A stretch of DNA of 64,000 nucleotides, from the NCBI RefSeq assembly GCF_035658495.1, contig NZ_CP141944.1:2940001-3004000 (forward strand), read 5' to 3'. Positions within the stretch are counted from its first letter, which is position 1, and each line of letters opens with the position of its first letter. The notes below the pieces were generated by a model. The model did no database searches and was not told the origin of the DNA. It worked only from the letters and a program-made list of their open reading frames with translations. This stretch comes from Novosphingobium sp. RL4 (lineage in GTDB: Bacteria; Pseudomonadota; Alphaproteobacteria; Sphingomonadales; Sphingomonadaceae). Position numbers and translations under genes: made by a program. Positions 46,431 to 59,814 of this stretch are shown in pieces.

Positions 46431-49082
46431 ATGGTTGCAAGGAATTTCAGGGCAGCGCTGATGGCTGGCGCTGCGCTTGGCGGCACCACGGCGGCAATGC
46501 CGGCGCTGGCGCAGAGTTCGCCGACCATCAATCCGGGCGAGATCATCGTGACGGCTCGCCGCACGGAAGAGCGCCTGCAAGACGTTCCCATATCCATCAC
46601 CGTGTTCAACCAGGAGCAGCTCAACAATCGGAACGTGGTGAGCGCCAGCGACCTTGCGACGAGCACGCCTTCGCTTTCGGCGAACAACAATTTCGGCTCG
46701 CAGAACTCGTCCTTCGCGATCCGCGGCTTCGTGCAGGAAATCGGCACCGCACCGGCCGTGGGCGTCTACTTCGCCGACGTGGTTTCCCCGCGCGGCGCAT
46801 CGAACGGCCTTCCGTCAGGCGACGGCGCCGGTCCTGGCGCCTACTTCGATCTCCAGAACGTCCAGGTCCTCAAAGGCCCGCAAGGCACGTTGTTCGGTCG
46901 GAACACCACGGGCGGCGCGATCCTGCTGGTGCCGCAGAAGCCCACCGATGTGCTGGAGGGCTACGTCCAGGGCTCGATCGGCAATTACGACATGCGCCGC
47001 GTCCAGGCCGTCTTGAACGTTCCACTGGCCGAGACGTTCAAGGTTCGCCTCGGCGTCGACCGCATGAAGCGCGACGGCTACCTGAAGAACAACAGCGGCG
47101 TTGGGCCGAAGGACTTCAACGATGTCGACTACCTGTCCGCGCGCCTCAGCGTGGTTGCCGAACTGACGCCAGATCTGGAGAACTACACGATCGCGACGTA
47201 CAGCCGGTCTGACACGCATGGTGACGCGCAGAAGCTCATTGCGGCCGACGCCGCCTATTCGCTGGGCCATTTCGCCGCCGAACAGCTCGATCCCGACAGT
47301 CCGAACTATCAGGGCGGCGGCTTCTACGACTTCGCGCAGGACCTTCCGAACGCCCGCTCCCTGTTGACGACATGGCAGATCATCAACACCACGACCTGGC
47401 ACGCCAGCGACACGCTGACGGTGAAGAACATCGTGAGCTATGGCGAACTGCGCGACCTGTTCAACAATCCGATCTTCGGCACCGCCTTCGAAAGCCCCGC
47501 CATCGCTCCGATCGGCCTGCCGAGCTATCGCTTCGGCTTCGCCAGCAGCCAGTCGCTTCCCGGCCATCGCACTGCCGACGAATCGACCTTCACCGAAGAG
47601 TTCCAGCTCCAGGGCCGCAGCACGGACGACAAGCTGAACTGGCAGGCCGGCGCCTATCTGGAATCGGTGCGTCCGCTCGACGTGGTCGGGTCCAAGTCAC
47701 CGGTCATCCAGTCCTGCGCCGGGCCGGAGCAAGTGGCAGCCAGCGAATGCTACGACATCCTGGGCTATCTGGGCGCGATCACCCCGGTGTTTTCCGGCGG
47801 CGCCTTCGACCCCACCTCTCACGCAGGCGCGATCAACACCACGGCGGGCCGGACCTCGTTCCACGACGTCGGCCTTTACGCGCAGGCAACTTACAAGCTG
47901 AGCGACCAGTTCAAGATCACCGGCGGCTTCCGCTACACCTGGGATCGCGAAAAGAACACCAGCGTCCAGACCACCACGATTACCGGCTATCCGCTGAGCT
48001 TCCCCGGATTCCAGCCGATCCCGGCAGGCCCCCTCGCCACGTTCTGCACTTATCCCGATGCGCCCGTGCAGGATCCCGGCGCGATCGACGGCTGCCGCCG
48101 CGATATCAAGCAGAAATCCAAGGCGCCGACCTGGCTGATCGATATCGACTATACCCCCACGACCGACGTTCTGATCTACGCCAAATATGCCCGTGGCTAC
48201 CGCACCGGTGGCATCGCACCGAACGTGACCTCGGCCTTTGCCGTGTTCGAGCCCGAGAAAGTCGATGCCTACGAAATCGGCGCCAAGACCGGCTGGCACG
48301 GTTCCATGCCGGGCACGTTCAATGTCGCCGGTTTCTATAACGACTTCCAGAACCAGCAGCTCCAGCTCGGCTTCAACGCCAACCCCTGCCAGTCGGTCGA
48401 CGCCAACGGCAACTGCGTGGCGGCGCCGGTTTCGCCCACGGCTGCGCCGGTCAATGCCGGCAAGTCGCGTATCTGGGGCGTCGAAGTGGAAGCCTCGTTC
48501 AATCCGTTCGCGGGGCTGCTGCTTCAGGTGGGCTATACCTACCTGAACACGAGACTGACCTCGATCGACACCTTCTCGCTGGAACCCGGGTCTCCCTATG
48601 TGCTGGCCGGGGCCTATACCAAGGGCGATCCACTGGCGCTTTCGCCCAGGAACAAGGTCACGATAACCGGCACCTACACGCTGCCGCTGCCGGAATCCGT
48701 GGGTGCGGTCTCGTTCGGTGCCACATTCACGCACACCGACAGCATGTTCGGCAATCCGTCCAACCGCTTCTACTTCGGCTGCAACGGCACGGCCAATACC
48801 TACATGCCCAACTGTCAGACCGGCGCGGTCTCCGACCCTGCCACGGTCGCCTATATCCAGAGCCTCAGCCGCATCCAGAGCACGGACCTGCTCAACCTGA
48901 ACTTCAACTGGAACAATATCGCGGGAGCCCCGGTCGATCTTGCCCTCTTCGCCACCAATGTCACCAAGGAGAAGTACTACAACTTCTACCCCGGCCTCGT
49001 ATCCGGCACCGGCTTCGAGACCGCATCGGTCGGCGCACCGCGCATGTACGGGATGAGCCTCAAGTACCACTTCGGAATGTAA
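46431..49082 (+). CDS. TonB-dependent outer-membrane receptor
   Basis: An 883-aa beta-barrel receptor. Signal peptide MVARNFRAALMAGAALGG, cleavage near ALA (about 28); no clear TonB box beyond EIIVTARRTEERLQDVPIS at about 37-55, which opens the plug domain; plug blocks SSFAIRGFVQE, LKGPQGTLFGRNTTGGAI; then the barrel, ending GMSLKYHFGM. GGAGGAGAGGAC precedes the ATG. Many sphingomonad receptors of this branch import plant-derived or aromatic carboxylates. Placement ahead of the CoA-catabolic cluster suggests it delivers that cluster's substrate, though no shared operator was found. Confidence 0.95.
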   Translation: MVARNFRAALMAGAALGGTTAAMPALAQSSPTINPGEIIVTARRTEERLQDVPISITVFNQEQLNNRNVVSASDLATSTPSLSANNNFGSQNSSFAIRGFVQEIGTAPAVGVYFADVVSPRGASNGLPSGDGAGPGAYFDLQNVQVLKGPQGTLFGRNTTGGAILLVPQKPTDVLEGYVQGSIGNYDMRRVQAVLNVPLAETFKVRLGVDRMKRDGYLKNNSGVGPKDFNDVDYLSARLSVVAELTPDLENYTIATYSRSDTHGDAQKLIAADAAYSLGHFAAEQLDPDSPNYQGGGFYDFAQDLPNARSLLTTWQIINTTTWHASDTLTVKNIVSYGELRDLFNNPIFGTAFESPAIAPIGLPSYRFGFASSQSLPGHRTADESTFTEEFQLQGRSTDDKLNWQAGAYLESVRPLDVVGSKSPVIQSCAGPEQVAASECYDILGYLGAITPVFSGGAFDPTSHAGAINTTAGRTSFHDVGLYAQATYKLSDQFKITGGFRYTWDREKNTSVQTTTITGYPLSFPGFQPIPAGPLATFCTYPDAPVQDPGAIDGCRRDIKQKSKAPTWLIDIDYTPTTDVLIYAKYARGYRTGGIAPNVTSAFAVFEPEKVDAYEIGAKTGWHGSMPGTFNVAGFYNDFQNQQLQLGFNANPCQSVDANGNCVAAPVSPTAAPVNAGKSRIWGVEVEASFNPFAGLLLQVGYTYLNTRLTSIDTFSLEPGSPYVLAGAYTKGDPLALSPRNKVTITGTYTLPLPESVGAVSFGATFTHTDSMFGNPSNRFYFGCNGTANTYMPNCQTGAVSDPATVAYIQSLSRIQSTDLLNLNFNWNNIAGAPVDLALFATNVTKEKYYNFYPGLVSGTGFETASVGAPRMYGMSLKYHFGM

Positions 49083-49134: not shown

Positions 49135-50202
49135 TCAGATCCCCAGCAGGGCATGGCTTTCATGGCGAGTAACCGCCTTGCCAAGGCGATCGACGAAAGT
49201 GGCGATGATCGGCGGATCGACGCGGCGGGTGATCGCCCAGAGATAATAGCCGTAGATCGCCGCTTCGCGGTACTGCCGCCACGCCTCCTCGTCGCCGGGC
49301 ATTGCCAGGCCGTGGCCACGCATCATCGAGAGATATTCACCGAGCAGCCTGCGCTCCTCGGCTTCGGCAACATCCACGCAGAGCACCGCATTGACGTGAT
49401 AGGCCACGTCCAGCGCCCAGCCGCCGCGTTGAAGCAGTTGCCAGTCGATCAGGCCCACCCCCCCGCCAAGGCGGAAGACGTTTCCGGCATGGGCATCACC
49501 ATGGACGAGGAATTGCGGGCACTGTCCATCGCGGGCCGCCAGCGCCCGGATTCCCGCGATCAGGCGCGGTGCGCTGCGGACTTGCCGGGAAAGACCGTCG
49601 CCGCGCGGTCCGTCCAGCAGCTCCTGGAGCGTTTCCGGTGTAACGTAGGTCATCTCCGCCAGTTGCGAAACGCGCGGGCGGATCCAGTCTGCCCCTTCCA
49701 GCAGGTCGCTGCGCGCGTGAAGCTGTGCGAGTTGCCCCAGACTGAGCACCGCGTCATCGGCACTGAAACTATCCAGAGCGGAACAGAACGTCGCGCCCTG
49801 TCCGATCAGGTCGAGCATCACCGTCACCGCCTGCCTGCCCCCCCGGTCGATCACCGTCGCCACGCAGTCAGGCACGGTGAGATCGACGGTCGGCGCGATC
49901 CGTCCGTAGAAGTCAGCCTCCAGAACACAGGTCGGTCCGCCGCGTGCGGTCGTCTCGTCCACGTCGAGCAGGCCCTTGAGACAGAACGCGCCGCTCTCCC
50001 CGCCCTCGAAAGTGACGGTGAACCGTACCTTGGTCGCGACCGTGCGGATCACTTCGACGGTCTCGACCCCGGATACCACCCTCCCGCCCGAGAACCCGGC
50101 GAGCACCGTGGTCAACCAGGCAGGATCGAGCGCCTCCGCGAGTGTGCGGGGAACATGGGCGCTAATCTGCTGCGGCCTCTTCCGAATGGCGGCTTCCGGC
50201 AT
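49135..50202 (-). CDS. APH-fold phosphotransferase (kinase), copy 1
   Basis: A 355-aa aminoglycoside-phosphotransferase-like protein. The catalytic loop is FLVHGDAHAGNVFRL (about residue 235) and the metal-binding motif GLIDWQLL (about 255). N-terminal blocks are weaker. In CoA-catabolic clusters such proteins can phosphorylate hydroxyacyl-CoA intermediates, as LvaA does in levulinate breakdown; drug resistance is not indicated here. The ATG at 50202 is chosen; in-frame starts further up run through the operator region. Divergent from the CoA-transferase gene with paired operator sites between. Confidence 0.83.
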   Translation of the reverse strand: MPEAAIRKRPQQISAHVPRTLAEALDPAWLTTVLAGFSGGRVVSGVETVEVIRTVATKVRFTVTFEGGESGAFCLKGLLDVDETTARGGPTCVLEADFYGRIAPTVDLTVPDCVATVIDRGGRQAVTVMLDLIGQGATFCSALDSFSADDAVLSLGQLAQLHARSDLLEGADWIRPRVSQLAEMTYVTPETLQELLDGPRGDGLSRQVRSAPRLIAGIRALAARDGQCPQFLVHGDAHAGNVFRLGGGVGLIDWQLLQRGGWALDVAYHVNAVLCVDVAEAEERRLLGEYLSMMRGHGLAMPGDEEAWRQYREAAIYGYYLWAITRRVDPPIIATFVDRLGKAVTRHESHALLGI

Positions 50203-50241
50203 GTCTGTTCTCCCGTGGCCGGTTCCGTCCGGCTTGTACAA

Positions 50242-50275
50242 TTCTCTATTTCGGTACATAATTCGCAATAGAGAA
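50242..50275. promoter_or_regulatory. Paired operator site 1 (APH1/CoA-transferase intergenic)
   Basis: TTCTCTATTTCGGT (50242-50255) and TTCGCAATAGAGAA (50262-50275), start to start 20 bp. The outer parts also form an 11-bp inverted repeat, AATTCTCTATT (50240-50250) with AATAGAGAATT (50267-50277). It lies between two divergent genes and could serve both. Confidence 0.65.
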
Positions 50276-50350
50276 TTTATCGTGCCCGCGCAAATAGTCC
50301 CGAATGACCGGGAAAGCTGCGGAAATTCGCGAGATGGAGAAGGATCGCCG

Positions 50351-51562
50351 ATGGGCAGGCCGCTGGAAGGCATCAAGGTCGTGGAGGTCGCGATGTGGGC
50401 ATTCGTGCCGGCTTGCGGCGGCATGCTGGCCGATCTCGGCGCGGACGTCATCAAGGTCGAACCACCCAGCGGAGACCCCTTGCGCGGCCTCACGATCGGC
50501 TCGCTATCGGGCAAAGGCACGATCGACTATTCCTGGGAGAGCTACAACCGGGGGAAGCGCTCCGTCACCCTGGATCTCAAGCAGGAGGCGGGCCGCGCCG
50601 TGCTGGATCGCCTGCTCGCCGATGCCGACGTGTTCCTCACCAACCTGCTGCCTCCGGCCCGGCGCGCCATGGGGATCGATGCGGAAACGCTGCGCCGCAC
50701 GTTCTCGAACCTGATCTACGCCAGCGGCAGCGCACTCGGCCCCAACGGCCCTGAAAGCGACCGTGGAGGCTACGACGCGATCACTTTCTGGGCACGCGGC
50801 GGCATCGCATCCTCGCTCACCGCGGATGAGGCGCCGCATCCGGTCGGCCCGCCCGGCCCGGCCTTCGGCGATACCTTGTCCGCTGCCATGCTCGCCGGCG
50901 GGATCTGCGCCGCCATAGCCCGCCGCGCGATGACCGGCGAGGCAGGCGAAGTCGATGTTTCCCTGCTGGCCGCCGCCATGTGGTCGCAGCAGCGGCTGAT
51001 CTGCCAGGCCACTGCCGACGGGGTGCGGAAGTTCCCGCGCCCCGATGCGGCCCACCCGCACAATGTACTGGTCGCCAACTACCGCACCCGCGACGGCCGC
51101 TTCCTTGCGCTGTGCATGTTGCAGGCGGATCGCTACTGGGCCCGCTTCTGCGAGGTTTCGGGCCGCCCCGACCTTGCCGCCGACCCGCGCTTTACCGATG
51201 CCGAGGCCCGGCGCCGGAATCTTGCCGCCTGTCATGCCGAAGTGACCTCCCTGTTCGCCTCGAAAACGCTCGCGGAGTGGAAGCAGATCCTCGCCCGGCA
51301 GGACGGCCAATGGGATGTGGTGCAGGATGTCGGCGAACTGGCGCAGGACGAACAGGTTCGCGCCAATCGCTATCTCAAGGCGGTGCACTGCGCGGACGGC
51401 AGCACGATCCCGATGGTTTCGGTGCCGATGCTGTTCGAAGGCGAGGCCTTGCCCTCTGACCGCTCGCCCGAACTCGGCGCGGACAGCGACACCGTGCTTG
51501 CCGCACTGGGCTACAGCGAAGACGAAATCATCGACCTGAAGGTGCAGGGCGTGGTGTTCTGA
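50351..51562 (+). CDS. Class III (CaiB/BaiF) CoA-transferase
   Basis: A 403-aa CoA-transferase. N-terminal MGRPLEGIKVVEVAMWAFVP and LADLGADVIKVEPPSGDP (about 30-47) are family blocks; the active-site aspartate is expected in the region of YDAITFWARGG (about 140); GGYDA and HPVGPPGPAFGDTLSA match the family. Moves CoA between organic acids without ATP, so would activate the substrate or recycle CoA from an end product. AAGGA lies 8 nt before the ATG at 50351. First of four plus-strand genes; overlaps the next by one base. Confidence 0.9.
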   Translation: MGRPLEGIKVVEVAMWAFVPACGGMLADLGADVIKVEPPSGDPLRGLTIGSLSGKGTIDYSWESYNRGKRSVTLDLKQEAGRAVLDRLLADADVFLTNLLPPARRAMGIDAETLRRTFSNLIYASGSALGPNGPESDRGGYDAITFWARGGIASSLTADEAPHPVGPPGPAFGDTLSAAMLAGGICAAIARRAMTGEAGEVDVSLLAAAMWSQQRLICQATADGVRKFPRPDAAHPHNVLVANYRTRDGRFLALCMLQADRYWARFCEVSGRPDLAADPRFTDAEARRRNLAACHAEVTSLFASKTLAEWKQILARQDGQWDVVQDVGELAQDEQVRANRYLKAVHCADGSTIPMVSVPMLFEGEALPSDRSPELGADSDTVLAALGYSEDEIIDLKVQGVVF

Positions 51563-51963
51563 TGTTGCCCCGCAAACTGCCCATGCTGGAACCGGAAAGC
51601 GCCTTCTTCTGGACATCGGGCCAAGACGGAAAGCTGCGTATACAGCACTGCCTCGCCTGCGGGACATGGCAGCACCCTCCCCTGCCCCGGTGCGCCCAGT
51701 GCGGCAGCGAGGATGTCTCGCCGGAACCGGTTTCAGGCAGAGGCGTGCTGGCCAGCTTCACGATCAACAACGAACCATGGCTGCCCGGCCTCGAAGTGCC
51801 CTTCGTGTTCTGTGCAATCGAACTGCCCGAGCAACGCGGGCTCTACGTTTTCAGCAACCTTCTTGCCGACGTGGCGACCGCTCGCATCGGACTTCCTGTC
51901 ACGGTCGTGTTCCAACGACACGAGGATATCTGGCTGCCCTTGTTCACACCCGAGACCGCATGA
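51562..51963 (+). CDS. Zn-ribbon/OB-fold (DUF35) protein
   Basis: A 133-aa protein with an N-terminal zinc ribbon, four cysteines in QHCLACGTW and PRCAQCGSE (about 29-48), followed by an OB-fold (VSGRGVLASFTINNEPWLPG, VPFVFCAIELPEQRGLYVFS). DUF35 proteins form complexes with thiolase-like partners; in steroid side-chain degradation such a pair is a retro-aldolase. TGATG overlap with the CoA-transferase stop and 4-bp overlap with the next gene indicate coupled translation and a shared complex. Confidence 0.9.
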   Translation: MLPRKLPMLEPESAFFWTSGQDGKLRIQHCLACGTWQHPPLPRCAQCGSEDVSPEPVSGRGVLASFTINNEPWLPGLEVPFVFCAIELPEQRGLYVFSNLLADVATARIGLPVTVVFQRHEDIWLPLFTPETA

Positions 51964-53144
51964 CCCTGCTTCCCGAAAAACACGTCTGCGTGACCGGCGC
52001 CGCCCTATCGGAGATCGCACGTCCATCCGGGCGAACCGCGCTGCAACTGACCGCCGACGCCTGTCTCGCCGCCATCGCCGACGCCGGCCTTTCCCCGCGC
52101 GAGATCGACGGCATCGCCACCTATCCCGGCAAGTCATCCGAAGGCGGCGGGATCGCGCCGGTCAGCCCATCCGAGGCCGCTGCCGTACTGGGGATCGCTC
52201 CACGCTGGATTCTCGCTTCCTCGGAAGGCTTCAGCCACATGGCGCCGATCTTCAACGCGATCACCGCCATCGCCTGCGGCCTTGCGCGCCATGTCGTCAT
52301 TTTCCGCACCGTGGCTCAGGCGAGCGCGCGGCAGCACGCCCGCGGCTCCACGCTGATGGCGGCCAGCCGGGAGCGCGTCGATGGCAACAATGCCTGGACG
52401 GTACCCTTCAACGCCCTCTCGCCGGTCAACACTTTCGCGCTTTACGCCCAGGCCTACTTCGAACGCTACGGCGCGGCGGCAGAGGAACTCGGCGCCATCG
52501 CCGTCAACGCCCGCGCGAACGCCGCGCACAATCCTTCCGCGATCTACCGCGAACCCATCACTCTGGACCAGTACATGGCCGCCCGCGTGATATCCTCGCC
52601 GCTGCGGCTGTTCGACTGCGACGCGCACGTCGACGGCGCCACCGCGCTGGTGCTGTCCCACCGGGATGCCGCCAAAGACCTGCTGAACCCGCCCCTCCAT
52701 ATCGAAGCCATGGGCATGGCCGTGGGCGGCCTCTGGACCGGACAGCACGAAGGCGACTTCACCCAGCTGCCCGCCGCCCGCCGCGCCGGAGACATGCTGT
52801 GGTCCCGTACCGACCTGAAGCCCCGCGAGATGGACTGCGCGCAGATGTACGACGGGTTTTCCATCTTCGTCTGGCTCTGGATGGAAGCGCTCGGCCTCGT
52901 TCCCCGCGGCGAGGCCTGCCGCTTCACACGCGGCGGCGAACGTATCGCGATCGGGGGGGAACTGCCGCTGAACACCGGCGGGGGCCAACTCTCCGCCGGA
53001 CGGCTTCACGGATATGGCCACATTCATGAGGCAACCGTCCAGCTCTGGGGACGCGGTGGCGGCAGGCAGGTGCCCGGCGCCAGAACCGCAATCGTCTCGA
53101 ACGGGGGCTATGGATACGGCGCGATGATCCTGCGGCGCGACTGA
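51960..53144 (+). CDS. Thiolase-like/lipid-transfer protein lacking the nucleophilic cysteine
   Basis: A 394-aa protein of the SCP-x/thiolase-like family. The position where thiolases have Cys reads LASSEGFSHMAPIFNAI (about residue 80) with no cysteine. The C-terminal block LNTGGGQLSAGRLHGYGHIH (about 340) keeps the glycine-rich loop and a histidine, and DCAQMYDGFSIF supplies a tyrosine/aspartate pair. With its DUF35 partner this matches Ltp2-type aldol lyases, not classical thiolases. Predicted reaction is retro-aldol cleavage of a 3-hydroxyacyl-CoA; substrate unknown. Confidence 0.85.
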   Translation: MTLLPEKHVCVTGAALSEIARPSGRTALQLTADACLAAIADAGLSPREIDGIATYPGKSSEGGGIAPVSPSEAAAVLGIAPRWILASSEGFSHMAPIFNAITAIACGLARHVVIFRTVAQASARQHARGSTLMAASRERVDGNNAWTVPFNALSPVNTFALYAQAYFERYGAAAEELGAIAVNARANAAHNPSAIYREPITLDQYMAARVISSPLRLFDCDAHVDGATALVLSHRDAAKDLLNPPLHIEAMGMAVGGLWTGQHEGDFTQLPAARRAGDMLWSRTDLKPREMDCAQMYDGFSIFVWLWMEALGLVPRGEACRFTRGGERIAIGGELPLNTGGGQLSAGRLHGYGHIHEATVQLWGRGGGRQVPGARTAIVSNGGYGYGAMILRRD

Positions 53145-53183
53145 TCGTATCAGCCGGACCGAGTCGCCCAATTGACTAGACAG

Positions 53184-53217
53184 TTCTTAATTGCGATCAT
53201 TTGTTCGGTATTGCGAA
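53184..53217. promoter_or_regulatory. Paired operator site 2 (amidohydrolase promoter)
   Basis: TTCTTAATTGCGAT (53184-53197) and TTCGGTATTGCGAA (53204-53217), 20 bp start to start, ending 17 bp before the amidohydrolase ATG. Confidence 0.65.
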
Positions 53218-53234
53218 TAAAAAGGAATCGGGAG

Positions 53235-54446
53235 ATGAGCGAAGCCGATCTGGCACTGAAACCGGCCCCGGAAGGCGCCCAAGCCGCATCCTGGCCCTAT
53301 GGCCCGATCTTCGATGCCGACGCGCATATCGATCCCCCCCACGACATGTGGAAGGACTACCTTCCTGCGCGGCTCAAGGACCGCGCGCCCTTCATCGAGC
53401 ACGCCGAGGACGGCGACTACATCTGCTTCGAAGGCAACCGCCGTCCCTTCATGATGATAAACAACCAGGCCGGGCGGGAAGGCAGGAACTTCAAGATGAA
53501 GGGCCGCCTCGCCGATCAGCGCAAGGTCTGGGAACCCACAACGCGGCTGGCCGACATGGACGCGGACGGCATGGGCGCCGCCCTGCTGTTCGGCGGCGGG
53601 CCGCTCGGCTCGTTCGACAACGAACTCTACGTCGCCAGCTACGAAGCCTATCAGAACTGGGTTCTGGACTTCTGCGCCGCCGCACCGGACCGGCTCTATC
53701 CAGTGGGCTACGTGCCGATGCGCGATGTCGGCGAAACCGTTGCCCACGTCCGCCGCCTTGCGGCCAAGGGCTTTCGCGCCATCAACCTGCCTGCCTTCCC
53801 CCAGAACCCCGAAGCCTGGAACACCAGTTCCGGCGTCGCCGCGCTCAAACCGGGGCAGGTCTCCGCGCTTACCGGCGATCCGAAGGGAAGCCTGCAATAT
53901 TACCAGCCGGAGTTCGATCGCCTCTGGTCAGCGATCTGCGATCACGATCTCGTCGTCACGTTTCACCTGGGTGCCCGGGTGCCGCGCTTCGGTGAGAAGC
54001 AGTTCTTCCTGCCCGACATGCCGATGAGCAAGCTGGCCATGGCCGAACCGCTCGGCATCCTGATCTACAACGGCGTGTTCGACCGTTTCCCATCCCTTCG
54101 CATAGGCTCGATGGAAAGCGGTGTCGGCTGGTTCGCATGGTACGCCGAATACAACGACCGCACCTGGGAAAAGCAGCGCTTCTGGACGGAATCCCCGCTC
54201 AAGAACCCGCCGAGCTGGTACATGGACCGCAACGTCTACGGTTCCTTCATCCAGGACCGCGCCGGTATTCTGAACCGGGACCTGCCGGGCGGCCGCAACA
54301 TCATGTGGTCATCGGACTATCCGCACTCGGAAACCACCTTCCCCCGCTCGCGCGAGGTTATCCTGCGTGACTTCGAGGGCGTGCCGGAGGCGGATGTACG
54401 GGCGATCATCCATGACAATTGCCGGCGGATGTTGGGGCTGACGTAA
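53235..54446 (+). CDS. Amidohydrolase-family (ACMSD/LigW-like) metalloenzyme
   Basis: A 403-aa TIM-barrel metal-dependent hydrolase/decarboxylase of the amidohydrolase_2 branch. IFDADAHIDPP (about residue 26) gives an HxD variant of the N-terminal ligand motif; VVTFHLGAR (about 240) and WSSDYPHSETTFP (about 359) supply the later histidine and catalytic aspartate. Members decarboxylate aromatic acids or hydrolyse ring amides and esters. Start at 53235, with AAAGGA and GGGAG upstream; it begins 91 bp after the thiolase-like gene and has its own paired operator. Confidence 0.88.
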   Translation: MSEADLALKPAPEGAQAASWPYGPIFDADAHIDPPHDMWKDYLPARLKDRAPFIEHAEDGDYICFEGNRRPFMMINNQAGREGRNFKMKGRLADQRKVWEPTTRLADMDADGMGAALLFGGGPLGSFDNELYVASYEAYQNWVLDFCAAAPDRLYPVGYVPMRDVGETVAHVRRLAAKGFRAINLPAFPQNPEAWNTSSGVAALKPGQVSALTGDPKGSLQYYQPEFDRLWSAICDHDLVVTFHLGARVPRFGEKQFFLPDMPMSKLAMAEPLGILIYNGVFDRFPSLRIGSMESGVGWFAWYAEYNDRTWEKQRFWTESPLKNPPSWYMDRNVYGSFIQDRAGILNRDLPGGRNIMWSSDYPHSETTFPRSREVILRDFEGVPEADVRAIIHDNCRRMLGLT

Positions 54447-54496
54447 CGAAAGCAGGGGCGGTGAGCGCAGCGGGCGCTCCCCCTTCGCCAGCGCCC

Positions 54497-55546
54497 TCAC
54501 CCCACCTTCAATCTCGCAGCCATCGCCGAAGCATCCATCATCGGCGAACCGCGCAGATGGCCAAGCCGGATACCCGTGCACGTCATCTTGAACTTCGCAA
54601 AGTCCTCATACCATTCAAGGTCGGCGGCAGACTTTCCGGTCAGTTCCTCCCACAGCGCGACTGTTTCCTCACGGCTGCCCATGCCTTCCAGCGGAGCCCC
54701 GTGGGCCGAGCGCGGACCATGCATCGTTTCCGCCAGTACGCAGAACCACGCGAGGTCATGAAGAGCCCCGCCAAGCGAGGGCTGTTCCCAGTCCATCACC
54801 GCCACCACGTCGAAATCCTTATCGAACATCATGTTGCCGACCCGCGCATCGCCCCAGACGAGGCCCTCGGGCTGATTATCCGGCCAGAGCGAGCGAAGGC
54901 GCGCCAGCGCCGCGTCGAGCACGGGCAGCGGCTCGACCTGTTGCAACCAGCGCGCGAAGCGATTGTACTTGGCCCATTCCTGATCGAGCCCGCGCGGCGC
55001 GTCCGGCTGCCCGGCAAGGAAATCGAGAGAGCCGAGCGGAACCGCCTGCACCGCAGCAAGCTGCCCCACTGCATTGCGCCAGAGCACGCGGCGCTGCGCG
55101 GGGCTCGCATCCCGCAGCCACCCTTCACGGGCATAGGGCGGGACCGAAACCGGCACCCGCCCGACCTTCCTCTCCATCACGAAGAACGGATTGCCGAGCA
55201 GCGCCGGGTCAGGCTCGAACCAGAGCGGCCGGGCGACGCGAACCTGTCCGTCATCGGCCAGGACTTGCATGACCCGGTACTGCTCGTCGAACAGGTCGTC
55301 GGGAAAGACCGTGAAAGCGCGCGGCTTGATACGGACCACGCAGCCCTGCCGGCGTTCGGCACCCTGTTCGCGCCAGCAGGCATCGAACAGGACCGTCTCA
55401 TGGCTTTGCCCGGCCCCGCGCGGATAGGCGACATCGCGGATTTCGACATCTGCCGCCTGCGGCATGCGCGCACCGAGCCAGCGCGCGAGCGTCACCGCCA
55501 GTTGTTCGAGATTCCGGGTCTCCGGCGCGACGATCACGTCCGACAT
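54497..55546 (-). CDS. APH-fold phosphotransferase (kinase), copy 2
   Basis: A 349-aa kinase-like protein. Nucleotide-binding region ends FFVMERKVGRVPV (about 125-137), the catalytic loop reads GLVWGDARVGNMMFD (about 228) and the metal motif VAVMDWEQ (about 248); the usual catalytic histidine is a tryptophan here but the aspartate and asparagine are kept. Closest in style to the ACAD10/LvaA-type acyl-CoA-associated kinases. Unlike copy 1 in sequence, so not a recent duplication. Has its own paired operator 32 bp upstream. Confidence 0.85.
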   Translation of the reverse strand: MSDVIVAPETRNLEQLAVTLARWLGARMPQAADVEIRDVAYPRGAGQSHETVLFDACWREQGAERRQGCVVRIKPRAFTVFPDDLFDEQYRVMQVLADDGQVRVARPLWFEPDPALLGNPFFVMERKVGRVPVSVPPYAREGWLRDASPAQRRVLWRNAVGQLAAVQAVPLGSLDFLAGQPDAPRGLDQEWAKYNRFARWLQQVEPLPVLDAALARLRSLWPDNQPEGLVWGDARVGNMMFDKDFDVVAVMDWEQPSLGGALHDLAWFCVLAETMHGPRSAHGAPLEGMGSREETVALWEELTGKSAADLEWYEDFAKFKMTCTGIRLGHLRGSPMMDASAMAARLKVG

Positions 55547-55577
55547 CCAGTCCTACTCCCACCTGCATTCACGATTG

Positions 55578-55611
55578 TTCGATATCGCGAATTTATTTTC
55601 GGTATTTGTAA
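55578..55611. promoter_or_regulatory. Paired operator site 3 (APH2 promoter)
   Basis: TTCGATATCGCGAA (55578-55591), the best match to the consensus, and TTCGGTATTTGTAA (55598-55611), 20 bp start to start. Confidence 0.65.
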
Positions 55612-55678
55612 GATGCCGCACGGATGCGGTCAAGCGAGGCGAGCCTCGCCTGAAAGGAAAGCCGCGTGGAGCGGGGTG

Positions 55679-56515
55679 TCAGTCGGTTTCGGGATGTCCG
55701 ATCAGGAAGCGCGAAATGCGGGTGCAGGCTTCGGCGAGCGCATCGCCCGCCCTGCGGATTTCCACACCGGTCATGGGGCCGTTGAATCCGGCCAGCACCA
55801 GCGAGATCGAGACCTTGTCCCTCGCTTCGTAGATCGGCGCCATGATCGCCATCAACGGATAATTGCGCGCATCGTCCAAAGCGGTTTCAGGCAGGACTGG
55901 CGGATCTTCCAGGTTGGTGACGATCGCGTTTTCGCCCGGGATACTGTCCGGCCGGCGGGTCAGCGCGATGAAGCCGTGCTCGCGCACGAAGGCCATGCCG
56001 CCGGCAAGCTGCTCGATCTGCTCGGCCGTGGGGGACGGGTTTATCCGTGCCTGGGCGGCGTCCGCGTCACGCGGGCTGCGCGCGTAGAACGCCGTTGCCT
56101 GCACCCAGCGCAGCGGCATCCGCGTACCCAGCGGAACCGGATATCCCACATGGCTCACCGAAGCGGCACGCTCGCGCAAGTGGATCACATCGCCTTCGAG
56201 GAAATAGGCGCCGCAGACGACATCGAAATCGTCCGCCAGCTTGCGCATCTCCGGCTGGGCTACCTGTAGCGGCGAGAAATGCTCGGCGGCGGTACGGCCG
56301 ATCGCCGCCAGCGCCGGGCCCAGCACGTAAGTCTTGTCGCTGGTACGATAGAGGTAGCCCACGTCGACAAGGCCGGTCAGCAAGGCGTGACAGGTCGCGC
56401 GGCTGAGCTTGAGCGCGCGGACGAGATCGGTCAGCGCGAAGGCCTGCCCCGGATGGTCGGCGATGAAATTCAGGATGGCGGCCATGCGGGCGACGCCGGG
56501 AGAGGAACGCGACAT
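55679..56515 (-). CDS. IclR-family transcriptional regulator
   Basis: A 278-aa regulator. N-terminal winged helix-turn-helix: ARMAAILNFIADHPGQAFAL, LVRALKLSRATCHALLTGLVDVGYLYR (about 8-55). The C-terminal effector domain of IclR type follows (VCGAYFLEGDVIHLRERA, LGTRMPLRWVQATAFYA, RNYPLMAIMAPIYE). Start MSRSSPGVARM at 56515. One copy of the cluster's TTCGnTATnnCGAA motif lies 8 bp before the start, so autoregulation is likely. Proposed to control the whole cluster in response to a CoA or acid intermediate. Confidence 0.92.
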   Translation of the reverse strand: MSRSSPGVARMAAILNFIADHPGQAFALTDLVRALKLSRATCHALLTGLVDVGYLYRTSDKTYVLGPALAAIGRTAAEHFSPLQVAQPEMRKLADDFDVVCGAYFLEGDVIHLRERAASVSHVGYPVPLGTRMPLRWVQATAFYARSPRDADAAQARINPSPTAEQIEQLAGGMAFVREHGFIALTRRPDSIPGENAIVTNLEDPPVLPETALDDARNYPLMAIMAPIYEARDKVSISLVLAGFNGPMTGVEIRRAGDALAEACTRISRFLIGHPETD

Positions 56516-56522
56516 GGGCACT

Positions 56523-56536
56523 TTCGCTATTTCGAA
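56523..56536. promoter_or_regulatory. Single operator site 5 (IclR autoregulation)
   Basis: TTCGCTATTTCGAA, centred about 15 bp before the regulator's start codon, over its ribosome-binding region. No second copy at 20 bp was found. Confidence 0.55.
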
Positions 56537-56577
56537 TTCGTCGGGTATGCCCTGCACCGATCTTCGTCAATAGCGCC

Positions 56578-58131
56578 CTACCCCTGCCGCCGGAGCCGTT
56601 CCGCCACGACCCGCGCGATCTCCCGCCGGGCCACCTTGTTGGAATGGAGCAGCGGCACGTCCTCACGCGCCATTTCCACCCAAGCACGGGGCACCTTGTA
56701 GCCGGAAAGGCTGGCGCGCATCCTTGCTTCGATGGCGGCAAAGTCCAGCACCGCCCCCTCGCGCGGAACCACCGCCGCCGCCAGCAGCGTTCCGCGCTCC
56801 CGGTCCGGCAGGCCGACGACATAGGCGCTGTGCACTCCGCCAAGCGCCTGAAGCTCCATCTCGACTTCGGCGGGAGAAACATTGGAGCCGGACACCTTTA
56901 TCATGTCCCCACCCCGCCCGACGAAATGAATGCGGCGCCCGTCGGCATGATCCTCGACCAGGCACATGTCCCCCGTGCGCAAGTAACCATCGGCGGTATA
57001 GTGATCGGCGCGCTCTATCTTGTGCAGGGCGGGTGCAACCGCGAGCCCGCGCACCTGCATCTCGCCCACTTCGCCGTCACCTACGGAATTGCCCTCCTCA
57101 TCGGCTATGCGGATGTCGTAGCCGGGGGCGAAATGGTCCATCGGCGCGCAGACGGGGCGGCCGGGCACGCGGAATTCATCCCCCCAGCCGTATGGCCCCA
57201 GAGTCTCGCTCATGCCGAGGCCCCACCAGGGTTGCGGCCCCCGGATGCGTTCCAGATCCTCCTCGGCCAGTACGCTCCCCATGGCGAAGCGGCTGTTGCT
57301 GAGCGTGCGTTCGGTACAGACCGTTACCGCACCCACTTCCCAGTTCGGCACCAGCGAAAGCATCAGCCCGCCAACCCAGAACATCGGCAATTGCGCGGCG
57401 CGTTGCTCGCCCGCCTTGATTCCCAGCATTCCCGCCAGCCAATGGCCACGCGCCATGACCGCTCCATGGAGGTGGCGCACGCCCTTGGGCAGGGCCATCG
57501 ATCCGGACGTGTAGATCTCGATCATCTGGTCGGTCGGATGAACTTCGCTCTCGACCGCCCTGAGCAGGTCTTCGCTCACGCCAGTCCCGGCCTCGATCAG
57601 CCAGGCCGTCGGCGCGATAGCCTCGTGAAGCGCCTCTCCATCGGAAACGATCCAGCGCAAATAGGGAATGCGGGGGATGAGCAGCGCCCCTGCCACCTGC
57701 CCATCCAGTTCGGGAACCGCCTCGGCCAATCGCGCCGCCATATCCTTGCCCAACATCTCGCGCTGGACCACCAGGCCCTGCACGTCGGACTGGCGCAGTA
57801 CGCGGACCAGTTCATTGGCGCGGATCATGGTGCTGATCGGAACGGCGACGGCGCCGATCCGCGCTATCGCGGCCAAGGTAACGGCAAACCCCGGTCCATT
57901 GCCGAATATGAAACCAACGCGCGTACCCTTGCCCACCCCGCGCGCCAGCAAACCCTTCGCAAGGGCCGCTGAATCGCGGTCTAGACCGGTGAACGTGGCG
58001 CTATCGACACCGGACTCGGTTTCGAGGGTGATGGCGCATGTCCCGCCATGGGCATGAGCGGCCGACCGGATCAGTTCCGGGAAAGTGCGGGCCTTGCCCG
58101 GCGCATCTTCCGCGCACGCTTCGCTGGTCAC
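56578..58131 (-). CDS. Acyl-CoA synthetase-like AMP-forming ligase
   Basis: A 517-aa ANL-superfamily ligase. IEIYTSGSMALPKGVRH (P-loop, about 210), GLGMSETLGPYG (about 305), ADGYLRTGDMCLV (about 385), FVGRGGDMIKVSGSNVSP (about 408-425) and the C-terminal catalytic lysine in LHSNKVARREI. Activates a carboxylic acid through its adenylate to the CoA thioester, the probable entry step of the cluster. GTG start at 58131 with AGAGGA 11 nt upstream. 62 bp upstream of the IclR gene on the same strand. Confidence 0.9.
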   Translation of the reverse strand: MTSEACAEDAPGKARTFPELIRSAAHAHGGTCAITLETESGVDSATFTGLDRDSAALAKGLLARGVGKGTRVGFIFGNGPGFAVTLAAIARIGAVAVPISTMIRANELVRVLRQSDVQGLVVQREMLGKDMAARLAEAVPELDGQVAGALLIPRIPYLRWIVSDGEALHEAIAPTAWLIEAGTGVSEDLLRAVESEVHPTDQMIEIYTSGSMALPKGVRHLHGAVMARGHWLAGMLGIKAGEQRAAQLPMFWVGGLMLSLVPNWEVGAVTVCTERTLSNSRFAMGSVLAEEDLERIRGPQPWWGLGMSETLGPYGWGDEFRVPGRPVCAPMDHFAPGYDIRIADEEGNSVGDGEVGEMQVRGLAVAPALHKIERADHYTADGYLRTGDMCLVEDHADGRRIHFVGRGGDMIKVSGSNVSPAEVEMELQALGGVHSAYVVGLPDRERGTLLAAAVVPREGAVLDFAAIEARMRASLSGYKVPRAWVEMAREDVPLLHSNKVARREIARVVAERLRRQG

Positions 58132-58234
58132 TGCCCGATCATCCTCTCGCTGGGGTCATGCCCTGTCGAGAGCGATCCTGCGGCTTGCGGCAGGGCTGGG
58201 CAAGTTACCGGCAAAGGGCATCGCCCCTGCGTCA

Positions 58235-58269
58235 TTCCCTATATGAGAATATACGTTCACTATCGCGAA
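58235..58269. promoter_or_regulatory. Paired operator site 4 (ligase promoter)
   Basis: TTCCCTATATGAGAA (58235-58249, one base longer) and TTCACTATCGCGAA (58256-58269), 20-21 bp apart, about 105 bp upstream of the ligase start. Confidence 0.55.
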
Positions 58270-58272
58270 TTT

Positions 58273-59670
58273 TTAGCTTTCGGCAAAAGTGTAGGGCTGC
58301 GCCGCGCGGCGGTAGTCGTCGGCCAATACGTCCCGCCCGATCGGCGGCACCGAACGGGCGGCGCATTCCGCGCGCTGGCAGAGGCGGCAAGTCACCCCGA
58401 TAGGCGTTCCCGCCACGGTCCCACCCTTCACACCTGCCGCATAGACAAGCTTGTCCGCCTCGTCCGCCGCACAGGCAAGCGCCACGGCGCGTGTCACCCT
58501 GGCGCGCCCATATCGCCCCTCGCCAAACGTCACCGTGCGCGCGATCGAGAAGAAGCGCTGCCCGTCCGGCAGTTCGAGCCACTGGGTGCGTATCTCTCCC
58601 GGCCAGCGGAATACCTGATGTACCGACCACAGGGGGCAGCCGCCGCCATGCGCCGCGAAAGGGAAGCCTGCGCCGTCCAGCCGCTTTGAGACATTGCCGG
58701 CCTCATCCACGCGAAGGAAGAAGAACGGCACCCGTTCCTCTCCCGGCCGATGGAGTGTGGTCAGTCGGTGCGCGACCTGCTCGAAACTGGCACCGAACAG
58801 GGCGCCGAGCGCATCGATATCGTAACCGCGCGCCTCCGCGGCACGGGCAAACCGGCCGTAAGGCATGAGGATCGCCGCCGCCGCGTAACCGGCCAGCGCG
58901 CGCCGCACGAGCGTGGCGGTCGTGGTCTGCGCAAAAGCCGCAGCGCGCACGACCGACACGATATCGCTGCGCATGGCGGTATGAGCGATGTGCGTGGCGA
59001 TCTGGAACGCCCGGCTGGCGGGGCCAAGCGTGTCGTCGATCAGGAGTTGCTGGTTATGACGGTCGAACCGCCGCAGGGAATCGACCATGACATCCGGCGG
59101 CAGGAAGCGCACCCGCACGCCTTTTGCGCCCAGCCATGCCGCAGCCCCTCCCGCCTGCTCGATTTCGGCAGCCAACTCTTCGGCACGAACATCCAGCGCA
59201 TGAAAATAGTTGCGAGACTGGCCAAGGAAGCGCTGCGCTTCGCGAACGGGCTCGCTTTCCTCCGCCGCCGGGCCGGATGCGCGTTGCTCCGCCAGCGCCT
59301 GGCTTTCGCGGGAATAGGCGCCGTGCAGGCGCAGCAGCGCTTCGGAAATGCTGGGGAAACTCATCGCAAGGTCGGCGATCTCCAGCGGCGGCAGGTCAAT
59401 ATCCGCGAACAAGGGATCGCGCAGCACCTCGCCCACGCGGCGGGCGTAGTCCTCACCGTCGTCTCCGGCGATGTCGGCCATGTCGAGCCGGTAGGTCCGC
59501 GCAAGGCGCAGCAGCATGTCCGCCGTAACGGGCCGCTGGTTGCGTTCCAGCAGTGCGACGTAGCTGGGCGAAATCTCCAGATCGTCGGCCATGGCCTGCT
59601 GCGTCAGCCCCAGTTCGCGGCGCAGGCGGCGCAGTCGGGGACCGAGATAAAGAGGGCGCGATTCAGCCAT
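58273..59670 (-). CDS. Short-chain fatty acyl-type regulator (ScfR/RamB-like)
   Basis: A 465-aa XRE-family regulator. HTH at about 10-65 (LRRLRRELGLTQQAMADDLE, YVALLERNQRPVTADML), a middle IrrE-like metallopeptidase-type domain (QIATHIAHTA, about 237) that appears non-catalytic, and a C-terminal cysteine-containing ScfR domain (GVTCRLCQRAECAARSVPP, about 430). RamB-type relatives control isocitrate lyase and methylcitrate genes. Divergent from aceA, with a palindrome between. Start at 59670. Confidence 0.9.
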   Translation of the reverse strand: MAESRPLYLGPRLRRLRRELGLTQQAMADDLEISPSYVALLERNQRPVTADMLLRLARTYRLDMADIAGDDGEDYARRVGEVLRDPLFADIDLPPLEIADLAMSFPSISEALLRLHGAYSRESQALAEQRASGPAAEESEPVREAQRFLGQSRNYFHALDVRAEELAAEIEQAGGAAAWLGAKGVRVRFLPPDVMVDSLRRFDRHNQQLLIDDTLGPASRAFQIATHIAHTAMRSDIVSVVRAAAFAQTTTATLVRRALAGYAAAAILMPYGRFARAAEARGYDIDALGALFGASFEQVAHRLTTLHRPGEERVPFFFLRVDEAGNVSKRLDGAGFPFAAHGGGCPLWSVHQVFRWPGEIRTQWLELPDGQRFFSIARTVTFGEGRYGRARVTRAVALACAADEADKLVYAAGVKGGTVAGTPIGVTCRLCQRAECAARSVPPIGRDVLADDYRRAAQPYTFAES

Positions 59671-59697
59671 GACGGCAATCTTGTCATGCCCACACAT

Positions 59698-59720
59698 CTT
59701 TACAAGGAATATCTGTAAAG
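59698..59720. promoter_or_regulatory. Palindrome CTTTACA-N9-TGTAAAG, ScfR operator candidate
   Basis: Perfect 7-bp arms, 9-bp spacer, 28 bp before the regulator start and 95 bp before isocitrate lyase, so positioned to control both divergent genes. Confidence 0.55.
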
Positions 59721-59814
59721 TTTGACAACCGGACTTCGCCGCGCGTTTCGCACTGCACAAATGCCGCCTAACTCAAGGTCATCGCCCAAACACTTTCGAC
59801 GGGGACTTTTGGCA

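Follow-up and report, generated by a model that had tools for sequence, protein, structure and literature searches.

Tandem palindromes, probably operators of an IclR-family repressor, mark a CoA-linked catabolic cluster in Novosphingobium

Known IclR operators and the palindromes of the cluster

The closest described counterparts of the sites reported here are the IclR group-1 motifs, in which, according to the accessible text of the survey by Suvorova & Gelfand (2021, PMC8222616), tandem palindromes with 18-22 nt between centres occur in 94 of 181 ortholog groups. We have analysed a window of 64 kb from Novosphingobium sp. RL4 (the whole stretch of DNA studied, G000:C1:2940001-3004000, in a genome of two contigs and 5.4 Mb), in which palindromes with the improved consensus TTCG-NN-AT-NN-CGAA lie at five promoter regions of a coenzyme A (CoA)-linked catabolic cluster. 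Its palindromes conform to TYCR-N5/6-YGRA, and the distance between their centres is in the 18-22 nt range of the group-1 tandem layout. The sites resemble group-1 operators in their TYCR...YGRA inverted boxes, tandem spacing, position near the gene start and apparent autoregulation. They differ from what the accessible text describes in combining A/T flanks with an N6 half-site spacing, and in the overlap of a predicted -10 box with the weak upstream palindrome at two promoters, those of the amidohydrolase-fold gene (AMH) and the phosphotransferase gene APH2. Novosphingobium is not named in the accessible main text of that survey.

Among individual regulators, the closest motif by eye in the survey's table, as far as it is accessible, is that of NpdR from Rhodococcus opacus (GTTCMRYATMRTGAWS), which reads TTC-N8-GA(A/T) with a central AT; the likeness is judged on the motif alone, since phylum, substrate and genes are all different. 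PcaU and PobR of Acinetobacter share the family and TTCG/CGA-type half-sites, but the accessible text (PMC8222616) gives them half-sites spaced by N5, plus a further half-site outside the palindrome, in contrast to TTCG-N6-CGAA here. PheR of Sphingobium sp. SHPJ-2 is likewise a sphingomonad IclR-family repressor, with a 44-bp footprint from +23 to -21, although the available part of its description gives a minimal motif, GCAACG, and a phenanthrene operon (PMC13273656) that set it apart. Finally, the TtgV-operator complex (2XRO), an IclR-fold protein on DNA, is matched by the model of the regulator studied here; TtgV is an efflux regulator, and the likeness is one of protein fold only. Tandem IclR operators are thus already known, and the apparent novelty lies in the ortholog group, the regulon and the pathway to which it points. 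In literature searches, with subscription journals mostly outside their reach, four motif strings were not found and no title on this cluster was among the matches listed.

The palindromes listed in an earlier note on this DNA are all present, and the evidence supports a real regulon with tandem sites two helical turns apart. When a single mismatch is allowed, TTCGNTATNNCGAA is matched five times in the window, always within the cluster (50262, 53204, 55578, 56523 and 58256). With up to three mismatches there are 85 matches, among which three pairs lie 20 bp apart (50242/50262, 53184/53204 and 55578/55598) and no other spacing up to 60 bp is seen more than once. The spacing of about 20 bp proposed for four promoters is therefore exact at three, whereas the ligase pair, 58235/58256, is spaced by 21 bp and has a 15-mer as its partner. 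The single site that had been placed over the IclR start in fact lies upstream of the ATG and is a probable autorepression site. The five operators are as follows.

50242..50275, no strand assigned: tandem operator of the divergent APH1 and CoA-transferase (CoAT) promoters; sites 50242-50255 and 50262-50275, spacing 20; conserved in relatives
53184..53217, plus strand: AMH tandem operator; sites 53184-53197 and 53204-53217 at a spacing of 20; fits the pair pattern with 0 mismatches
55578..55611, minus strand: APH2 tandem operator; strong site 55578-55591, weak site 55598-55611, spacing 20
56523..56536, minus strand: single palindrome TTCGCTATTTCGAA in the promoter of IclR, between 8 and 21 bp upstream of its ATG (56515)
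58235..58269, minus strand: acyl-CoA ligase tandem operator; strong site 58256-58269, weak 15-mer 58235-58249; spacing 21 here, 20 in relatives

For the whole genome, we used a pair pattern built from the three cluster pairs themselves. These score 0, 1 and 2 mismatches and are the three best tandem matches, the third being tied by C2:15625. Because the motif was derived from the cluster sites, independent tests count more. Two exact single sites were seen on the second contig, with neighbouring genes named by eye. One, at G000:C2:733723 (L009:7724-7737), precedes a TonB receptor gene by about 55 bp, with an MFS transporter gene and a TauD-like open reading frame coming next, and is possibly an extra target or a chance match. 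The other, at G000:C2:357439 (L008:7440-7453), lies between TonB-like and LysR-type genes, about 160 bp before the LysR-like gene, with no partner seen. The TonB receptor gene at 46431-49082 was rejected as a direct target, the best upstream match to TTCG-N6-CGAA having 2 mismatches.

Conservation in relatives and the identity of the binding protein

In 37 ortholog loci, matches with up to three mismatches within 45 bp of each other are spaced by 20 bp 53 times, followed by 8 bp (10) and 28 bp (7). When one site was held to at most one mismatch and the other to at most three, 36 loci (631,807 bp) gave 29 pairs at 20 bp, followed by 9 at 8 bp, where the motif overlaps a shifted copy of itself, and by 4 at 28 bp. 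In the same DNA, eleven permuted palindromes yielded 0 pairs at 20 bp. The near-identical strain L018 was excluded from the permuted-palindrome and anchored tests and included in the 37-locus spacing, TTGAC, best-pair and autosite counts. In the anchored test, we scored eight bases of the 14-mer lying 20 bp upstream of each strong site, using promoters with a site of at most one mismatch (as also for the TTGAC boxes below) and excluding alignments under 45% identity from the promoter sets. Mean mismatch was 2.12 at AMH (n=17), 3.18 at APH2 (n=28), 3.62 at the ligase (n=16) and 3.93 at CoAT (n=15), compared with about 6.0 (standard deviation 0.37-0.49) at offsets other than -20; at CoAT, offset -8, where the motif overlaps itself in shifted form, was slightly lower than -20. 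The 14-mer at -20 of the IclR promoter averages 5.74 mismatches (n=35), which indicates that there is no second site. The earlier note had named two outcomes that would speak against it: equal motif density at random intergenic regions, and loss of the 20-bp spacing beside IclR orthologs. Neither was found, window-wide, genome-wide and permuted-motif densities having been used in place of sampled intergenic regions, and the spacing being conserved next to IclR orthologs.

The arrangement also persists where the cluster is broken up. In eight split-cluster genomes, which we selected (at least as many others with halves on separate contigs lie outside the sample), the half with IclR and the half with CoAT and AMH are at least about 61 kb apart (three genomes) or on separate contigs (five), and the pair is kept at CoAT/APH1 in 8/8 and at AMH in 7/8. 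It would be conceivable that the sites reflect shared ancestry, or chance AT-rich palindromes, without a functional regulon: the loci are related, and the intergenic DNA holding the operators has a GC content of 0.46-0.57 versus 0.646 for the window. Yet the permuted palindromes give no pairs, the same motif and spacing recur at non-homologous promoters, and the operators follow their genes in split clusters and appear by unlinked oxidation genes, all of which makes this explanation scarcely credible.

As for the protein that binds, the proposed candidate is encoded within the cluster.

55679..56515, minus strand: IclR-family regulator, 278 aa, proposed binder (PF09339)

Its N-terminal HTH_IclR domain matches PF09339 with 36.4 bits (cut-off 22), while its C-terminal domain has no PF01614 match at E<=0.001. 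The structural model (pLDDT 87) matches whole IclR structures (best E 8.5e-15, TM 0.63) and the ligand domain of E. coli IclR, 1td5 (1.2e-6), so that the C-terminal effector fold is present. Because PF01614 is unmatched although the fold matches, the ligand may be an unusual one. An identical protein is encoded by L018, Novosphingobium sp. ST904. IclR proteins of N. aromaticivorans are listed in the accessible part of a DAP-seq (DNA affinity purification sequencing) paper (PMC12352068), and there is no N. aromaticivorans locus among the 37 ortholog loci.

In 36/36 loci with upstream DNA (the contig of L037 has none), the IclR ATG has a site of no more than one mismatch within 45 bp. In L014, a locus from another genus, a 42% identical IclR ortholog also has the site directly before its ATG. 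In L044 the autosite is seen in two copies 16 bp apart before the IclR gene (1822-1851). Across 149 genomes of the genus, IclR (E<=1e-40) is found in 42 and AMH (E<=1e-150) in 41, and the pair pattern, with at most two mismatches, in 41/42 IclR carriers versus 21/107 other genomes (Fisher p 7e-20, kinship among genomes ignored). If G309, whose IclR is broken into two fragments lying at the ends of contigs, is counted as a carrier, the figures become 42/43 versus 20/106. All 41 AMH genomes have an IclR homolog (40 at E<=1e-40, among them the distant homolog of G400, and G309 in pieces), and IclR without AMH is found in G310 and G338. The sole IclR carrier without a pair, G400, has a homolog only 38-39% identical, with changed recognition-helix contact residues by eye; two 6-kb stretches of this genome hold ten words within one mismatch of TTCG-N6-CGAA, one of them with a central AT and none directly before a gene start. 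By eye, too, the recognition helix is nearly invariant wherever the motif is kept, and is altered in L015, L016 and G400, in which the motif is shifted or absent; in L015 and L016, the site by the IclR start has a different sequence. A homolog with one apparent in-frame stop was seen in L013 (G172:C1:1763973-1764800), with sites by the cluster genes still present.

Together, the conserved spacing, the autosite, the co-occurrence, the persistence in split clusters, the covariation of the recognition helix, a motif type of the IclR family and the predicted promoter geometry described below lead us to consider it highly probable that the palindromes are operators of the local IclR-family regulator and that it acts on them as a repressor. 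The earlier choice of IclR as the binder, made from its location and from the habit of the family to bind tandem sites, is thus supported. A different regulator, such as a paralog among the 15 HTH_IclR matches in the genome or the RamB/ScfR-like protein encoded at 58273-59760, could in principle bind instead, and the RamB-like gene does adjoin the cluster in many loci and, in the split genomes G405, G326 and G419 (L058, L060 and L064), sits close to the half with AMH. However, the sites are kept in L026, L031, L041, L043 and L047-L054, which have no RamB-like match on the locus DNA (the gene lies or may lie elsewhere in the genome), no site is listed upstream of the RamB-like gene, and pair presence tracks this IclR ortholog with a motif of the IclR type. 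We therefore do not favour the RamB-like neighbour, and regard any binder other than the local IclR as very unlikely.

Predicted promoters and mode of action

We predict the following probable core elements for the promoters.

50234..50262, plus strand: CoA-transferase core promoter, probably TTGTAC-N17-CATAAT
53172..53200, plus strand: AMH core promoter, probably TTGACT-N17-GATCAT; overlap between the -10 box and the upstream site, in its degenerate arm
55605..55633, minus strand: APH2 core promoter, probably TTGACC-N17-TACAAA; overlaps the upstream weak site
56543..56570, minus strand: IclR core promoter, probably TTGACG-N16-ATACCC, with a weak -10 box

In relatives, TTGAC boxes keep a nearly constant distance from the strong palindrome: -32 for 14/18 AMH promoters, -41 to -47 for 24/29 APH2 promoters and -33 to -38 for 30/36 IclR promoters. 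Assuming a 17-bp spacer, the -10 box falls on the upstream palindrome at both AMH (mostly GATAxT, over the degenerate arm) and APH2 (often TATCAA, over the outer arm). At the CoAT promoter, the upstream site occupies the spacer and the downstream site begins at the last base of the predicted -10 box. The weak site may be weak partly through doubling as promoter, and the bound protein would exclude polymerase.

At AMH, APH2, CoAT and IclR, four promoters in all, the sites cover the probable -10 box and start, which argues for a repressor rather than for an activator of the PcaU/PobR kind, to which the earlier note had likened the half-sites. PcaU and PobR are activators, and activator sites of this type are not known to cover the core promoter. 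An inducer-dependent activator, or a protein with a dual role, would accord with the presence of activators in the family (PMC8222616, accessible text) and with the extra upstream site that the four structural promoters have, unlike the IclR promoter. But the overlaps place the sites over the predicted -10 box or start, not upstream of -35, the half-sites are spaced by N6 and not N5, and there are two palindromes instead of three boxes. The PcaU/PobR-type three-box operator was accordingly rejected on half-site spacing and promoter position, and activation by IclR at these sites appears unlikely to us.

In the repressor reading, IclR dimers would occupy the strong palindrome over the transcription start when no inducer is present. 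Each of the four structural promoters would hold a further dimer on its weaker palindrome, which lies 20 bp upstream, facing the same side of the helix, over the spacer/-10 region; the two dimers would exclude RNA polymerase cooperatively, as a tetramer. At the IclR promoter itself, a single dimer would suffice for autorepression. A pathway acid or its CoA ester would release the protein, and release would switch on CoA activation (ligase and CoA-transferase), the oxygenase-like amidohydrolase, the DUF35/thiolase-like pair and the two kinase-like proteins.

Several observations weigh against this reading. The weak partner in each pair is 2-3 mismatches from consensus, and 20-21 genomes without IclR still show a match to the pair pattern. 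The best pair within 220 bp has more than five mismatches at APH2 in L035, L049 and L051, at AMH in L041, and at the ligase in L035, L042, L044, L045 and L046, by a cut-off that is itself lax, as in this uncontrolled best-pair search it also admits 31/37 IclR promoters, where a second site is absent. A TTGAC box (at -29) is found in only 6/15 CoAT promoters and in 0/15 ligase promoters; the -10 boxes are weak, and the transcription starts are predicted ones. Moreover, the loci share kinship, so that the counts are not independent events.

The cluster and the pathway marked by its operators

The genes of the cluster and its flanks are the following.

46431-49082, plus strand: TonB receptor
49135..50202, minus strand: APH1, an APH/ecdysteroid-kinase-like phosphotransferase
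50351..51562, plus strand: family III CoA-transferase (CoAT)
51562..51963, plus strand: DUF35 protein (OB), ChsH2-like zinc-ribbon/OB
51960..53144, plus strand: thiolase-like protein (THI); closest solved relative 6ok1, a lipid-transfer protein, which we take to be Ltp2
53235..54446, plus strand: AMH, amidohydrolase-fold protein; nearest solved chains DitZ and PtmU3
54497..55546, minus strand: APH2, APH-like, kinase-like phosphotransferase; solved relatives include ACAD11
56578..58131, minus strand: acyl-CoA ligase (AMP-forming)
58273-59760, minus strand: RamB/ScfR-like regulator, 362 bits (cut-off 700)

The RamB/ScfR-like gene is a neighbour of the cluster in many relatives. Some relatives have other genes between AMH and APH2, namely P450 genes in L034 and L046 and an MFS transporter in L028. 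In a plasmid search for close relatives, identity among the matches listed reached 47% for the amidohydrolase and 38% for IclR, with every record under 60%.

AMH has a PF04909 fold, with dinuclear members such as PtmU3 as its nearest solved relatives: it matches DitZ and PtmU3 by sequence (4e-32 and 6e-27) and by fold (2e-22 and 2e-21; model pLDDT 73). The fold alone discriminates little, because mononuclear decarboxylases follow at about 1e-16 with similar TM scores. Residues D29, H31, H244, E294, D361 and H364 are invariant in seven alignment rows and aligned in DitZ and PtmU3 by eye, a set that we compared, from the alignment alone, with the three His and three carboxylate metal ligands expected. 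DitZ and PtmU3 presumably belong to a diterpenoid setting. The accessible part of PMC10811679 treats oxygenases like PtmU3; DitZ is identified by a structure title, and no use of the name was found among the matches listed in a literature search. In THI, the sequence YDGF, read by eye, stands where the catalytic motif YDHF is expected, so that the Tyr is retained and the His is not; this motif and the retro-aldol chemistry of DUF35/Ltp2-type pairs are described in the accessible part of PMC12329534.

Sites lying away from the cluster point to further steps. From the matches listed in the scan of the genus with the pair pattern, we hand-picked ten outlying places; at seven of these, all in IclR carriers and found by DNA alone, the tandem site adjoins oxidation or CoA-related genes.

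L069: aldehyde dehydrogenase and short-chain dehydrogenase/reductase (SDR)
L070 and L071: aldehyde dehydrogenase and P450
L073: P450
L074: AMH paralog
L075: P450 and a divergent CoA ligase
L078: GMC oxidoreductase with CoAT/AMH paralogs

The other three (L072, L076 and L077) have no obvious neighbour of this kind. In L069-L071 and L078, by eye, a -10-like box adjoins or overlaps the pair and is preceded, at about 17 bp, by TTGAC. Since G383 and G432 have further IclR homologs, the outlying sites in these genomes (L070, L071, L075 and L076) may belong to a paralogous IclR.

With enzyme roles tentatively assigned, this suggests a regulon in which a hydrophobic compound would be oxidised to an acid and CoA-activated, and its side chain cleaved. 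A more specific proposal, which we put forward tentatively as a possibility somewhat short of even odds, is that the operators mark a sphingomonad regulon not described before, by which a hindered hydrophobic acid, perhaps terpenoid- or steroid-like, would be oxidised terminally and have its side chain cleaved. P450s or alcohol dehydrogenases, together with aldehyde dehydrogenases, would be followed by CoA ligation, hydroxylation by a DitZ/PtmU3-like dinuclear oxygenase and a DUF35/Ltp2-like retro-aldol step, all under one IclR, whose weaker upstream site overlaps the -10 box.

As regulation, this is a clear but ordinary case of tandem IclR operators. Its importance lies in the operators, a tag by which a CoA-linked pathway can be recognised sharply and genome-wide in Novosphingobium and its relatives. 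The tag picks out unlinked candidate pathway genes from DNA alone, which narrows the chemistry, and it makes the inducer and the two unusual enzymes directly testable.

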